Positions 44,146 through 49,166 of a stretch of 64,000 bases of DNA are shown here, in pieces. Origin of the DNA: Woeseia oceani. GTDB lineage: Bacteria > Pseudomonadota > Gammaproteobacteria > Steroidobacterales > Woeseiaceae. A program made the position numbers and the translations under genes. The DNA is taken from the NCBI RefSeq assembly GCF_001677435.1, contig NZ_CP016268.1, positions 1,973,001 through 2,037,000 of the forward strand. The letters run 5' to 3'. Numbering within the stretch: position 1 is the stretch's first letter; each line of letters opens with the position of its first letter. Under the pieces are notes generated by a model that saw only the letters and a list, made by a program, of their open reading frames with translations, was not told the DNA's origin and ran no database searches.

Positions 44146-45501
44146 GTGACCCGAAATCAATCAGACTGGCATCCCGCCAGCTGGCAATCCATGCCCGCCG
44201 CGCAGCAACCGTCCTACCCTGATCAGGGGGAACTGGATCGCGCTGTGGCAGACCTCAGCCGACTGCCGCCGATCGTCACCTCGTGGGAAGTTGACGGTCT
44301 GCGCGATCACATCGCCAAAGCTCAGCGCGGCGAAGCGTTTGTCTTGCAAGGTGGCGATTGTGCGGAAAATTATTCGGATTGCACCTCGGAAAGTGTCGTT
44401 GCCAAGCTGAAAATTTTGCTGCAGATGAGCCTCGTCATGCTGTACGGGCTGAAAAAGCCGGTCGTAAGAGTAGGGCGCATGGCGGGCCAGTACGCCAAGC
44501 CACGGTCAGCCGACATGGAGACCCGGGACGGCGTGACTTTGCCAAGTTTTCGCGGTGATCTCGTGAACCGGAGCCCGTTCACGCCGGAAGACCGAATCCC
44601 CGATCCCCAGTTGATCCTGCGTGGCTACGAGCGCGCGGCGTTGACTTTGAACTTCGTGCGCTCATTGATTGATGGCGGTTTTGCCGATTTGCATCACCCC
44701 GAATACTGGGACCTCGATTGGGTCGGCCATTCCAAGACGGCCTCGCAATACCACGACATAGTGAATTCCATTTCGGATTCGCTGGATTTCATTGAAACCG
44801 TTTCGGGTCGGCCATTGCACCTGACGCAGCGCGCTGACATCTATGCCGCACACGAGGGTTTGCACCTGTTGTACGAGCAATCGCAGACCCGCTTCCTGCC
44901 GCGTCGCAAGAGCTGGTACAACCTCACCACGCATTTCCCCTGGATCGGCATGCGTACGGCAGCACTCGATGGCGCGCACATCGAGTACTTTCGCGGCATC
45001 GCCAATCCGATGGGGGTAAAGATCGGCCCGGGCATGACCCGCGAGTGGCTGCAGGATCTCATTCGTGTATTGAACCCGAACAATGAGCCGGGCCGATTGA
45101 CCTTGATTCATCGCTTTGGCGCAAAAGCGATCGAAGACGGTTTACCTGAGCTGATTCGTGCTGCCCGTGAAACGGGATCACCCGTACTGTGGGTGTGCGA
45201 CCCGATGCATGGCAACACGGAGAGTACGGCCGACGGCACCAAGACCCGGCGCTTCGACAATATAGTGGGTGAGCTGGAGTCAGCGTTCCGGATTCATGAA
45301 GAGATGGGCAGTTATCTTGGCGGTGTGCACCTTGAGCTCACCGGCGAGAATGTTACGGAGTGTACCGGCGGGGCGCGTGGTTTGAATGACGCCGATCTCG
45401 CCCGTGCATACAAGTCCACCGTTGACCCACGCCTTAACTACGAACAGGCGCTGGAAGTGGCAATGCGGATTGCCGGTATCAGCCGACATCAGCACCCCTG
45501 A
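44146..45501 (+). CDS. 3-deoxy-7-phosphoheptulonate synthase, class II
   Basis: This enzyme condenses phosphoenolpyruvate and erythrose 4-phosphate as the first step of the shikimate pathway. The 451 residues are of the class II (plant/mycobacterial) type, unrelated in sequence to AroF/G/H: WHPASWQSMPAAQQPSYPD, FVLQGGDCAENYSDC, VGRMAGQYAKPRS, KIGPGMTREWLQDL and the metal-binding WVCDPMHGNTE are all present. The start is GTG at 44146 with AGGAG 6 nt upstream. Class II enzymes are common in Pseudomonas and Xanthomonas relatives. Confidence 0.95.
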   Translation: MTRNQSDWHPASWQSMPAAQQPSYPDQGELDRAVADLSRLPPIVTSWEVDGLRDHIAKAQRGEAFVLQGGDCAENYSDCTSESVVAKLKILLQMSLVMLYGLKKPVVRVGRMAGQYAKPRSADMETRDGVTLPSFRGDLVNRSPFTPEDRIPDPQLILRGYERAALTLNFVRSLIDGGFADLHHPEYWDLDWVGHSKTASQYHDIVNSISDSLDFIETVSGRPLHLTQRADIYAAHEGLHLLYEQSQTRFLPRRKSWYNLTTHFPWIGMRTAALDGAHIEYFRGIANPMGVKIGPGMTREWLQDLIRVLNPNNEPGRLTLIHRFGAKAIEDGLPELIRAARETGSPVLWVCDPMHGNTESTADGTKTRRFDNIVGELESAFRIHEEMGSYLGGVHLELTGENVTECTGGARGLNDADLARAYKSTVDPRLNYEQALEVAMRIAGISRHQHP

Positions 45502-45584: not shown

Positions 45585-46151
45585 TCAGCTGTCCAGCAAG
45601 GCCCACGCGTCGCTGTTGCTGATGGTCCGGCTTTCACCTGGCAATAGTCCGTCTATCGAAAACGGTCCAATGCGATGCCGGATCAGGCGCAAGGTGGGCA
45701 AGCCCGCGGCCGCTGTCATTCGACGCACCTGGCGATTACGTCCTTCATCGATCGCCATATCGATCCACTCGGCCGGAATCGAGCGGCGTTCCCGAATAGG
45801 TGGATCGCGTGGCCAAAGGTTTTCCGGAGCTGGGATCGCCCGTGCCAGTAAGGCTCTCGCCGTGCCGTCTTTAAGGTGCACACCGCGCTCAAGTCGGGCC
45901 AGTTGCGCCGCGTCTGGAATACCCTCAACCTGCACCCAATAGCGTTTGGGCAGTTTGCGCTTCGGTTCGGCAATCCGTGCCTGCAAGCGACCGTCATCTG
46001 TCAGCAAGAGTAAGCCTTCGCTGTCTCTGTCAAGACGGCCGGCCGGATAAACGCCGGGCAGCGTGATGAAATCGGCCAGCGTCTGTCGTTGCTCACTGTC
46101 GCGAAACTGGCTGAGCACCTGAAAAGGTTTGTTGAGCAGGACCAAAGGCAT
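45585..46151 (-). CDS. rluE: 23S rRNA pseudouridine synthase, RluE-like
   Basis: The 188-residue enzyme belongs to the RsuA family: it has the catalytic Asp block YPAGRLDRDSEGLLLLTDDG, followed by KLPKRYWVQVEG, EWIDMAIDEGRNRQVRRM and LRLIRHRIGPFSIDGLLPG. It lacks an N-terminal S4 domain, as in RluE, which modifies U2457 of 23S rRNA. In enterics rluE also lies next to icd; here the malate-synthase-like gene is between them on the other strand. Confidence 0.9.
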   Translation of the reverse strand: MPLVLLNKPFQVLSQFRDSEQRQTLADFITLPGVYPAGRLDRDSEGLLLLTDDGRLQARIAEPKRKLPKRYWVQVEGIPDAAQLARLERGVHLKDGTARALLARAIPAPENLWPRDPPIRERRSIPAEWIDMAIDEGRNRQVRRMTAAAGLPTLRLIRHRIGPFSIDGLLPGESRTISNSDAWALLDS

Positions 46152-46257: not shown

Positions 46258-47745
46258 ATGCACGACCAGGCCATCACCGTACGATTCCCGGCGGACGCGC
46301 CATACGCCATGCTCGCGGACCAGCGCACCCTGGCGCTGGTCGCCGAATTGCACGAACAGTTTGCACCGCGATTGCTGGATTTGATGGAGCAACGACGGCA
46401 GCGGCAGAATGCCTACGACAACGGTGATTGGCCGCACAGTATTCCGCCCGTCAGCACTGACAACTGGTTGGCCGGTGGTGCCGCCCAAGTACTGCGTGAC
46501 CGGCGCGTAGAGTGGCATTGCAGCGCGGACGACGACTCCCTGCCGGAGGCGCTTTACTCCGCCGCATCCACTGTTGTTGTCGACCTCTGCGAACTGCTCC
46601 CGGTGGACGGTGCGGCGCTGACCGCACTGGCGGCAATTCACCGTGCGCTGAAGGCGAGTGCGCAGTTGCCACGTAACGCGCTCATATTCGGGATGCGCGA
46701 GCTTTGCTGTCGCGAACCACTCATGCTTTGGAAAACAGCGCCGGCGCACGCTGCATTGGTTGATGTGGCATTTTTCCTTGGTCATAGCGCGGCCTTGCAG
46801 GATGCCATCTGTCTAAAGCTCAGCCAGCTGGAATCCGCTGCAGAAGCCGAGTTGTGGAGAGACATCCTGAAGTATCTGGAAAGCGCCGGAATTGTTGCTC
46901 CCGACCAGATCAATGCGACGCTCGCAATCGAAACAGTGCCGGCCGTATTTGCAATCGATACGCTGATGTACGCACTCAAAGATTATGTCGCAGCGCTGAC
47001 TCTCGATCACAGTAGTTGTTTCGCGAGTCTCGTGCGCGCCTTTCGCGAGTTTCCGCAGTTTGTCTTGCCGGATTTGTCGGAACTGACCGGGAGTACCCAT
47101 TTGCTGCAACGTTGGGAAATCCTGTTGGTGCAGCACGCACACCGTCGCGGCGTCCTGGCAATTGGTTCGCCGGCCCGGTGGCAGGCCCGGCATGCTGACA
47201 GGGACAATCGTTTCTTCGGCCGCCTGCGAGCCGAGAACGAGCGTCAGATCCAGGCCGGGTTCGACGGTATAGGCGTCGCTGATGAGGTTTTTGTCGCCGC
47301 TGCGCGCGAAGTGTTTGACCGGTTGATGCCGGGCCAGCACCAACTGCATCAGCTGCGTGGCGATATGCATATCGTGGGCGCGGATTTATTGCAGGTGCCG
47401 AAAGGCAAGATCACGGAATCCGGCTTGCGTGCGTGTCTTGCTGTCGCATTGCAGGGGTTGCTGGCCCTCGCAGAAGGCCGGTCTGCGCTCATTCTTGATC
47501 AGCGCCGTGAAACCCCGGCGAGTATCGAATTGGCTGCCGGGCAGTTGCGTCATTGGGTCAGCCACGCGACCGGCGTGCTGGATGACGGTCGAATCGTGGA
47601 CGAAGAGTTTTTTCAGGGGGTGCTGGAGGACGAAGCCGCCAAGCTGGATACGGTGGGCATAGACGTCGCGGAACGGGCGCAGTGTCTGTCGGACTTCGTC
47701 CTTGGCAGGACTTCCGCCGCAGGTTTATTGCCAAATTTTGCGTGA
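46258..47745 (+). CDS. Degenerate malate synthase A homologue (probable pseudoenzyme)
   Basis: The 495-residue protein aligns over its whole length with malate synthase A as I remember it. Matching blocks include the DNGDWP region near residue 54, RDRRVEW near 80, INATLAIETVPAVFAIDTLM (218-237), ALKDYVAAL, FPQFVLPDL and HRRGVLAIG. The active site is eroded: the signature containing GxWDYIF reads LDHSSCFAS, so the metal-ligand Asp is Ser253, and the catalytic Asp near the C-terminus aligns with Thr419; only Glu225 is kept. It sits just upstream of icd, at the glyoxylate-shunt branch point, on the same strand. Enzymatic activity is unlikely; a regulatory or scaffolding role is speculation. Confidence 0.8.
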   Translation: MHDQAITVRFPADAPYAMLADQRTLALVAELHEQFAPRLLDLMEQRRQRQNAYDNGDWPHSIPPVSTDNWLAGGAAQVLRDRRVEWHCSADDDSLPEALYSAASTVVVDLCELLPVDGAALTALAAIHRALKASAQLPRNALIFGMRELCCREPLMLWKTAPAHAALVDVAFFLGHSAALQDAICLKLSQLESAAEAELWRDILKYLESAGIVAPDQINATLAIETVPAVFAIDTLMYALKDYVAALTLDHSSCFASLVRAFREFPQFVLPDLSELTGSTHLLQRWEILLVQHAHRRGVLAIGSPARWQARHADRDNRFFGRLRAENERQIQAGFDGIGVADEVFVAAAREVFDRLMPGQHQLHQLRGDMHIVGADLLQVPKGKITESGLRACLAVALQGLLALAEGRSALILDQRRETPASIELAAGQLRHWVSHATGVLDDGRIVDEEFFQGVLEDEAAKLDTVGIDVAERAQCLSDFVLGRTSAAGLLPNFA

Positions 47746-47825: not shown

Positions 47826-49166
47826 ATGCAATACGATCACATCAAGGTTCCCAATGACGGCAGCCAGATCACCATTAATCCTGACCATTCATTGAATGTG
47901 CCGGATTTTCCGATCATTCCTTTTATCGAGGGTGACGGAATTGGTATTGATGTCACGCCGGTCATGCTGGACGTGGTCAACGCGGCTGTTGAGCGGGCTT
48001 ATGGCAGTAAAAGGGCCGTTCGCTGGATGCAGGTATACGCTGGACAGGCCGCCGCCGATCTGTACGGCGACAATCAATACCTGCCGGAAGAAACCCTGCA
48101 CGCGTTGCGCCATTACGCGGTTTCGATCAAAGGACCGCTAACCACGCCGATTGGTGGTGGTATGCGTTCTCTGAACGTGACCATCCGGCAAACGATGGAC
48201 CTGTTTGCCTGCGTACGGCCGATACGCTATTTCCCGGGCGTATCAACGCCAATGAAAGACTCGGACCTGGTGGACATGACTGTGTTTCGCGAGAACACTG
48301 AAGACATATACGCAGGTATCGAATTCCCGGCCGGCTCACAGGAAGTGCAGAAACTGATCAAGTTCCTGCAGTCGGAACTCGGCGTAACGGAAATCCGTTT
48401 CCCGGCCAGTTCCGGTATCGGCATCAAGCCGGTTTCACGGGAAGGCTCGGAGCGCCTTGTACGCAAGGCCATTCAGTATTGTGTCGATCGCGATCTGGGT
48501 TCGGTGTCGCTGGTTCACAAAGGCAATATCATGAAGTTCACCGAAGGCGCATTCTGCCAATGGGGCTATGAAGTTGCGCGCGAAGAGTTCGGCGCGACAC
48601 CCATAGATGGCGGCACGTGGTTGACCTTCAAAAACCCGGTCACTGGACGAGACATCGTCATAAAAGACGTCATCGCGGATAACTTCCTGCAGCAAATTCT
48701 GCTTCGGCCAGAGGAATACGACGTTATTGCTACGTTGAATCTCAATGGCGATTACATATCGGACGCTTTGGCCGCGCAGGTAGGCGGCATTGGCATCGCA
48801 CCGGGCGCCAACATCGGCGAAGGTGTCGGTGTTTTTGAGGCGACGCACGGCACGGCACCGGGCTTCGCCGGCAAGAACCGGGTGAATCCAGGGTCCCTCA
48901 TACTATCGGCAGAGATGATGCTGCGTTATATGGGCTGGACGGAAGCGGCAGACCTGATCATCAAGGGTGTGGCCAACACGATTGCGAACAAGGAACTGAC
49001 CTTTGACCTTGCGCGACTGCGAGAGGCCATTCGTGCGCCCAAGCGCAAGGTTGATCCACACGACAAAAGTGAAGTTCAGGAAGAGCTGGAACAACTGATT
49101 CCGGGAGCGAAGCTATTGGGTACTCGCGGCTTTGGCCGGGCCATCATCAGCCACATGGATGACTGA
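47826..49166 (+). CDS. icd: Isocitrate dehydrogenase (Icd type, with C-terminal insertion)
   Basis: This TCA enzyme decarboxylates isocitrate to 2-oxoglutarate. The 446 residues follow E. coli Icd closely ([32 protein letters not shown] with the regulatory Ser, [32 protein letters not shown]). About 26 extra charged residues ([18 protein letters not shown] region) lie just before the C-terminal [13 protein letters not shown]. At positions equivalent to E. coli Lys344, Tyr345, Val351, Tyr391 and Arg395 I read Gly, Phe, Val, Phe, Arg, so NADP preference is likely but not certain. A TACAAT element (47783-47788) may be its -10 box. Confidence 0.95.

Follow-up and report, generated by a model that had tools for sequence, protein, structure and literature searches.

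Degenerate malate synthase A gene without its active site in the ancestral aceB place of Woeseia oceani

Introduction

Malate synthase A (MSA, AceB) contains the Pfam domains PF01274, PF20656, and PF20659, and its solved structures include 3cuz, 3cv2, and 3cux. The Trp and the Pro of the HDGTWVAHP block are residues of its pocket. Malate synthase G (MSG, GlcB; TIGR01345) belongs to the same superfamily and catalyzes the same reaction. Pseudoenzymes are proteins that have lost their catalytic residues, while the fold and the reading frame are kept.

More distant relatives are found in the CitE-like superfamily, which includes malyl-CoA lyases, malyl-CoA thioesterase, and haloarchaeal malate synthase. 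Their TIM barrel is common to the protein reported here, and passages of PMC3832036 describe Arg, Glu, and Asp at the metal. According to the same passages, the Glu and Asp that hold Mg are invariant throughout CitE-like enzymes and malate synthases, and the water ligands of Mg are held in related enzymes by a Glu-Asp pair. The substitution of the base Asp631 of Escherichia coli MSG by Asn (D631N) completely abolished the activity (passages of PMC3832036). For malate synthase of Mycobacterium tuberculosis, Trp541 and Asp633 are the residues noted in a passage of PMC7557483.

Among the papers listed from the open-licence literature, no malate synthase pseudoenzyme was found by title and abstract, and no paper was found that treats Woeseia and malate synthase together. 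The word malate is absent from the main text of PMC7082342, a metabolic reconstruction of W. oceani. Here, an aceB gene of W. oceani is described from a stretch of 64,000 nucleotides (the window) in a genome that consists of one contig of 4,059,891 bases.

Results and Discussion

The window gene encodes a full-length malate synthase A homologue

The gene at 46258–47745 (+) is an open reading frame from ATG to TGA, with 495 codons and 0 internal stops. Its G+C contents by codon position (0.696/0.440/0.667) are similar to those of the neighbouring genes. These facts agree with the intact frame and normal codon use reported in the original prediction, and the motifs quoted there are all found in the translation. 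Near the gene, 1 promoter and 3 terminators were found where 1.0 and 2.5 are expected, which is no excess.

The window protein matches Pfam MS_TIM-barrel with 104.5 bits (cut-off 26.4) and MS_N with 38.1 bits (cut-off 23.5), and its MS_C score of 21.8 bits is just below the cut-off of 23.1 (E 0.00027). Its closest solved relatives by phmmer are the MSA of Bacillus (3cux, E 1.9e-53) and that of E. coli (3cuz, E 2.4e-37). The claim of a full-length MSA homologue is thus upheld by the profile search. The window protein resembles MSA in its end-to-end sequence, its domain order, its predicted fold, and the gene position of Woeseiaceae aceB. Unlike MSA, it has neither the Asp that binds Mg nor the Asp that acts as the catalytic base, and much of the pocket is missing. 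It is also shorter (495 residues versus 508–535 in 15 intact Woeseiaceae MSAs), and its NCBIfam malate_syn_A score of 198.8 is far below the equivalog cut-off of 594.5. The model of the window protein shows 11–12% identity over the fold to solved MSGs.

Two catalytic Asp residues and much of the pocket are lost

The catalytic Arg is kept as Arg147 (46696–46698, +) and the Mg-ligand Glu as Glu225 (46930–46932, +) in the alignments. The Mg-ligand Asp is replaced by Ser253 (47014–47016, +), and the block GRWDYIF reads DHSSCFA. In the gapless stretch DYVAALTLDHSSCFASL, Ser253 is located opposite the Asp of GRWDYIF in canonical Woeseiaceae enzymes. Codons 416–419 (47503–47514, +) read R-R-E-T at the position of the canonical LMED; E418 is kept and Thr419 replaces the catalytic base Asp. 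Here, too, a gapless stretch, DQRRETPASIE, places Thr419 opposite the Asp of MEDAATAE in canonical Woeseiaceae enzymes. In CitE-like enzymes, both metal ligands (Glu and Asp) are present and the base is acidic, being Asp or, in the thioesterase group, Glu; the window protein has Ser and Thr at the two Asp positions.

These positions were surveyed in 145 homologue rows, composed of 65 loci from a genome search and the best 80 of 491 relatives from an alignment search; at least two genes are counted twice in this set (L007/L163 and L008/L164). With the best 80 of 491 included, the catalytic Arg is kept in 145/145 rows, as is the Mg-ligand Glu in 145/145. Column 253 is Asp in 144/145 rows and Asn in L011. 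Column 419 is Asp in 143/145, Glu in L173, and a gap in the truncated row L232. These three rows depart at one position each, and in no other row of the 145 surveyed (best 80 of 491 included) are both catalytic Asp residues missing. Both replacements, Ser253 for the Mg ligand and Thr419 for the base, had been proposed before and are borne out by these gapless alignments. L173, from a metagenome-assembled genome labelled Rickettsiales, is an MSA that reads LMEEAATAE, with a base Glu as in the malyl-CoA thioesterase group.

The losses extend beyond the two Asp residues. At codons 339–343 (47272–47286, +), W339, H342, and P343 of HDGTWVAHP read G, D, and E. The Leu-Met of LMED is lost, and the conserved Gly after the catalytic Arg is Glu. 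The position of the D-C-E-D-S block reads D-L-C-E-L (codons 109–113; 46582–46596, +), where E112 may remain, depending on the alignment, and the Asp is lost. The Glu-Asp pair position reads C-E, E-gap, or E-L, varying with the alignment, and one or both of the second-shell acids are missing. In 143 canonical rows (the best 80 of 491 relatives included, L011 and L232 left out), 91 positions are at least 98% conserved; of these, the window protein keeps 36, substitutes 53, and deletes 2.

It could be considered that the scaffold with Arg147 and Glu225 has become a new enzyme for a different reaction, perhaps without metal, of an acyl-CoA or a 2-oxo acid. The retention of Arg147, Glu225, and E418 fits such a change, and D250, which lies three residues N-terminal of Ser253, might bring a carboxylate close to the metal site. 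However, the losses are spread over many parts of the pocket, and the base is changed to Thr. An Asp at a shifted position, which would have preserved the base, was looked for and is not present in the gapless alignment around Thr419. Orthologues with a fixed new residue set were not found either; the searches, with the best 80 of 491 relatives included, gave only MSAs of at most 37% identity. A new catalytic activity is quite improbable.

The original prediction had suggested, as a speculation, that the protein can still bind glyoxylate or acetyl-CoA and serves as a sensor or partner for isocitrate dehydrogenase (Icd) or for the glyoxylate shunt. With the loss of the LMED block, of the Mg-ligand Asp, and of the Trp and Pro in HDGTWVAHP, binding of the known substrates in the manner of the enzyme is unlikely. 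The breadth of the pocket losses weakens this proposal, to which the probable retention of the predicted fold and the position of the gene beside icd would be favourable.

The gene occupies the ancestral aceB locus

The next gene on the same strand is icd at 47826–49166 (+), which begins after a gap of 80 bp and is the neighbour named in the original prediction. This icd encodes an ordinary NADP isocitrate dehydrogenase, 77–83% identical to the Woeseiaceae icd products of the same type. Upstream are an RNA pseudouridine synthase gene at 45585–46151 (−), presumably rsuA-like, and a class II DAHP synthase gene at 44146–45501 (+). Both belong to a conserved gene order according to Pfam and the locus comparison.

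In 15/15 Woeseiaceae genomes with intact aceB that were examined, aceB is at the same locus. It immediately precedes icd, in the same orientation, in 12 of the 15, and the order is aceB-aceA-icd in one (G011). In the two others, G008 and G013, aceB is in the same locus between the DAHP synthase gene and the uvrC side, but icd is not there; downstream of aceB are a gene that we take to be uracil-DNA-glycosylase-like and uvrC. Eleven of the 15 loci are visible far enough upstream (L120–L126, L128, L130, L131, and L284). DAHP synthase is found upstream in 11/11 of them and pseudouridine synthase in 9/11, the exceptions being G012 and G008. Among 16 loci without aceB that have at least 1.5 kb upstream of icd, the gene next to icd is pseudouridine synthase in 13, DAHP synthase in 2, and neither in 1.

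The window gene is therefore aceB in its ancestral place, which is newly recognized here. As intact aceB holds the same place in relatives, the position of the window gene beside icd is inherited and is no sign of a sensor of Icd. The original prediction had taken this position as a hint of a function together with Icd, and this part is not supported. A sensor or partner that still binds glyoxylate or acetyl-CoA is very improbable.

At the place of icd, about 90 bases are present in G008 (L130), and G013 has a 1,354-base stretch that carries another frame, of 400 codons (L284:5392–6745). The sole icd type of G008 is elsewhere and is 58% identical; a search of G013 yielded neither type. Of 38 checked loci from the best 80 of 491 relatives, 7 have icd inside the retrieved stretch, and two of these 7 (L163 and L164) are from genomes already counted. 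One of the 7 is labelled Steroidobacteraceae and has icd adjoining aceB.

GlcB and aceB nearly exclude each other in Woeseiaceae

A search of the rest of the W. oceani genome for an active aceB or glcB, as had been suggested, revealed an intact and, judging from its residues, apparently active GlcB (1083 bits, cut-off 989). Unlike the window protein, this MSG of 730 residues has a full active site; the RNVGHL, MDEE, FLDRTGDE, and LMEDR blocks, with the Arg, Glu, Asp, and base, are kept. Isocitrate lyase AceA is also encoded (746.7 bits, cut-off 562). Because of the intact GlcB and isocitrate lyase, the glyoxylate shunt seems not to need the window gene. A Pfam match alone would name the window gene malate synthase, and metabolic models would then count two. 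According to a passage of PMC7451513, isocitrate lyase is transcribed by relatives in Arctic sediment.

Among 32 Woeseiaceae genomes, intact aceB is present in 1/14 with glcB versus 14/18 without it (Fisher p 8e-5, kinship uncorrected). Among the 20 genomes that are at least 90% complete, the counts are 1/12 versus 8/8, likewise uncorrected for kinship. In a wider set of 107 Woeseiaceae genomes, 96 match the malate synthase domain, 15 with MSA alone and 81 with an MSG-type match. Except for GlcB of the window genome, the classification of the MSG-type matches relies on two features, the Pfam score and the frame length, and those of G298 and G216 are fragmentary. The 11 genomes without any domain match are drafts, 52 to 89% complete. 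The MSA of the 15 MSA-alone genomes is intact in 14 and decaying in G033. Of the 81 genomes with an MSG-type match, only G017 has an intact MSA, two, namely G000 (the window genome) and G209, have a degenerate MSA, and 78 have no MSA match. MSA and MSG thus nearly exclude each other across the 107 genomes, and GlcB has most likely replaced aceB. Within one bacterial family, the MSG isoform appears to have taken the place of MSA, and the genomes show apparent stages: both genes are intact in G017, the MSA gene is degenerate with an open frame in W. oceani, it carries internal deletions in G209, and it is absent from the 78 genomes.

The two strongly degenerate MSAs are both in GlcB genomes, and the third, partly decayed one (G033) is not. 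G209, of another Woeseiaceae genus, carries the second degenerate aceB beside icd (L119:6214–7068, −). It is internally deleted, lacks the HDG and MEDAATAE blocks, and is open for 284 codons from its start. The decaying aceB of G033 (L011; G033:C28, 3357 bases) reads GHWNYIF for GRWDYIF, with the base Asp kept, and adjoins an icd remnant with a stop codon. No glcB is seen in this 82–85% complete draft; hence, GlcB need not always come first.

G017 is the only genome with both malate synthases intact, and its glcB is about 1 kb from aceA (L275; G017:C57:84000–94226). The two genes glcB and aceA are on the same contig within 3 kb in G007 and G010, and about 90 kb apart in the window genome.

A part of these facts would also be expected from slow decay, in which aceB became redundant after the arrival of glcB, its active site was no longer constrained, and the gene is heading for loss without a use of its own, as in relatives. 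An MSA match is absent from most Woeseiaceae genomes with glcB, and all but one of the 16 icd loci without aceB have the pseudouridine synthase or the DAHP synthase gene next to icd. The internally deleted remnant of G209 and the decaying aceB beside the icd remnant of G033 would be examples of the course, and the low number of kept positions in the window protein (36 of the 91, best 80 of 491 included) is in line with it. What speaks against it is the state of the window gene itself, described below.

The frame and the predicted fold are kept

Neutral decay of Woeseiaceae aceB was simulated without indels and with one composition, down to 40% identity to the ancestor. This value is an estimate from the 34% identity of the window protein to living relatives, which average 73% mutual likeness. 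Stops appeared in all 300 runs, with a mean of 11 and a minimum of 3, versus 0 in the 495 codons of the window gene. Smaller simulations of 40 runs each gave a mean of 11.8 stops and a minimum of 5, and in none of a further 300 runs did an open stretch extend to 323 codons. At hydrophobic columns, the window protein keeps 0.88 versus 0.68 in the simulations (sd 0.03, maximum 0.77). With re-alignment, the values of the hydrophobic core are 0.87 versus 0.69 (sd 0.04, maximum 0.77, 40 runs). The mean BLOSUM62 score of the exchanged letters is −0.48 to −0.54 in the window protein versus −0.76 in the simulations (sd 0.10, maximum −0.47), which is somewhat more conservative and is a weaker pointer.

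A model predicted by AlphaFold from an alignment with 53 relatives has pLDDT 89.9 and pTM 0.91; the input alignment consists of canonical MSAs, so the prediction leans toward their fold. The overlay on MSA proposed in the original prediction was successful: the model superposes on E. coli MSA 3cv2 with Z 50.0 and an rmsd of 1.8 over 490 residues, and Foldseek gives TM 0.94 to 3cuz, in agreement. The window sequence is, as modelled, compatible with the MSA fold; the model does not show actual folding.

The absence of stops, the single frame in which the window gene aligns end to end, and the kept core argue against slow decay and agree with the earlier view of a frame that looks maintained. As far as can be judged from sequences, the simulations favour a maintained pseudoenzyme. 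The remnant of G209 is nonetheless instructive. It is broken by large deletions and much of its barrel is gone, yet its frame is open over 323 codons and its core scores 0.82, nearly as high as that of the window protein. A present function is hence not proven by an uninterrupted frame and a well-kept core alone. Both the window gene and the G209 remnant may have passed through a long constrained phase, with the constraint ended since. Slow decay toward loss is overall a possible course, although a rather doubtful one for the window gene.

The more probable reading is that the window gene is the lineage's own aceB, replaced by GlcB, which has lost its active site and has been kept as a folded, non-catalytic pseudoenzyme. 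In this reading, the ancestral order was DAHP synthase, pseudouridine synthase, aceB, and icd, and malate synthase G took over the malate synthase reaction. The active site of aceB would then have been freed from constraint and destroyed, and the gene would have been retained for a folded protein without catalysis. At present, the MSA scaffold could serve for binding, most likely in contact with another protein. Protein contact is favoured over a small-molecule sensor because the pocket is lost and the core is kept. We infer this order of events, and likewise the production of the protein, its lack of turnover of acetyl-CoA and glyoxylate, and its present binding role. That the partner is recruited for regulation of the isocitrate branch point in Woeseia, through Icd, isocitrate lyase, or GlcB, is a more specific proposal and is unlikely. 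The putative pseudoenzyme resembles pseudoenzymes in general, since it is without catalytic residues, its frame is kept, and its fold is kept in the prediction. Provided that the protein has a use, it would count as a pseudoenzyme of malate synthase, for which no paper was found among those listed.

Phylogenetic position of the window protein

In one alignment, the window protein is 30.3–34.4% identical to Woeseiaceae MSAs and 27.3–32.6% identical to 16 other MSAs. In the LG tree without the divergent rows L022 and L023, it groups with the Woeseiaceae MSAs (SH-aLRT 99.9). In the LG tree with these two rows, it joins both (SH-aLRT 99), a grouping that carries a long-branch warning; in this set, a position among the Woeseiaceae MSAs is not rejected (p 0.50). 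A quick stand-in for an unfinished mixture-model tree also places it with L022 and L023 (SH-aLRT 94), with both degenerate rows at the branch ceiling of 10. The two LG trees give end branches of 5.8 and 4.6 changes per column for the window row, versus medians of 0.30 and 0.29. Woeseiaceae signature letters, relative to other MSAs, are 4 for, 2 against, and 3 neither in the window protein, which are too few. In a quick Icd tree, the window Icd has no firm place in Woeseiaceae, and the nearest rows by path are those of g10 (glcB) and g4 (aceB).

Close relatives of the window protein were sought in several ways. Protein searches of 60, 396, and 369 genomes (overlapping sets) and the alignment search (best 80 of 491) gave only MSAs of at most 37% identity to it. 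None was confirmed among 42 peptide-pattern matches in genome contigs and 4 in viral contigs. A degenerate orthologue of the window gene was found in none of the protein, alignment (best 80 of 491), and peptide-pattern searches, in which the active site was read in 145 rows. One Woeseia genome is covered at this locus; the congener G001 is a draft, the contig of which ends beside the locus.

A degenerate ancestor common with the G209 remnant was also considered and rejected. Of 53 doubly changed sites, 9 agree, no more than the background, so the losses in the window protein and in the G209 remnant look independent.

An origin from the MSA type of L022 and L023 was likewise rejected. A cruder count, with 23 sites carrying the Woeseiaceae letter versus 19 carrying the L022 letter, looked even, and the short motifs RRE and FDG are common to this type and the window protein. 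The non-Woeseiaceae sites, however, match L022 at 0.24, no more than they match 17 other rows (0.00–0.41). This type itself, encoded in G056 and G043 (L022:1435–2988 and L023:1435–2988), is a divergent MSA that reads GPADYVFS and RREDMATAE, with the catalytic residues present. It is 41–47% identical to other MSAs, and its best match among 398 genomes of the phylum is 47%.
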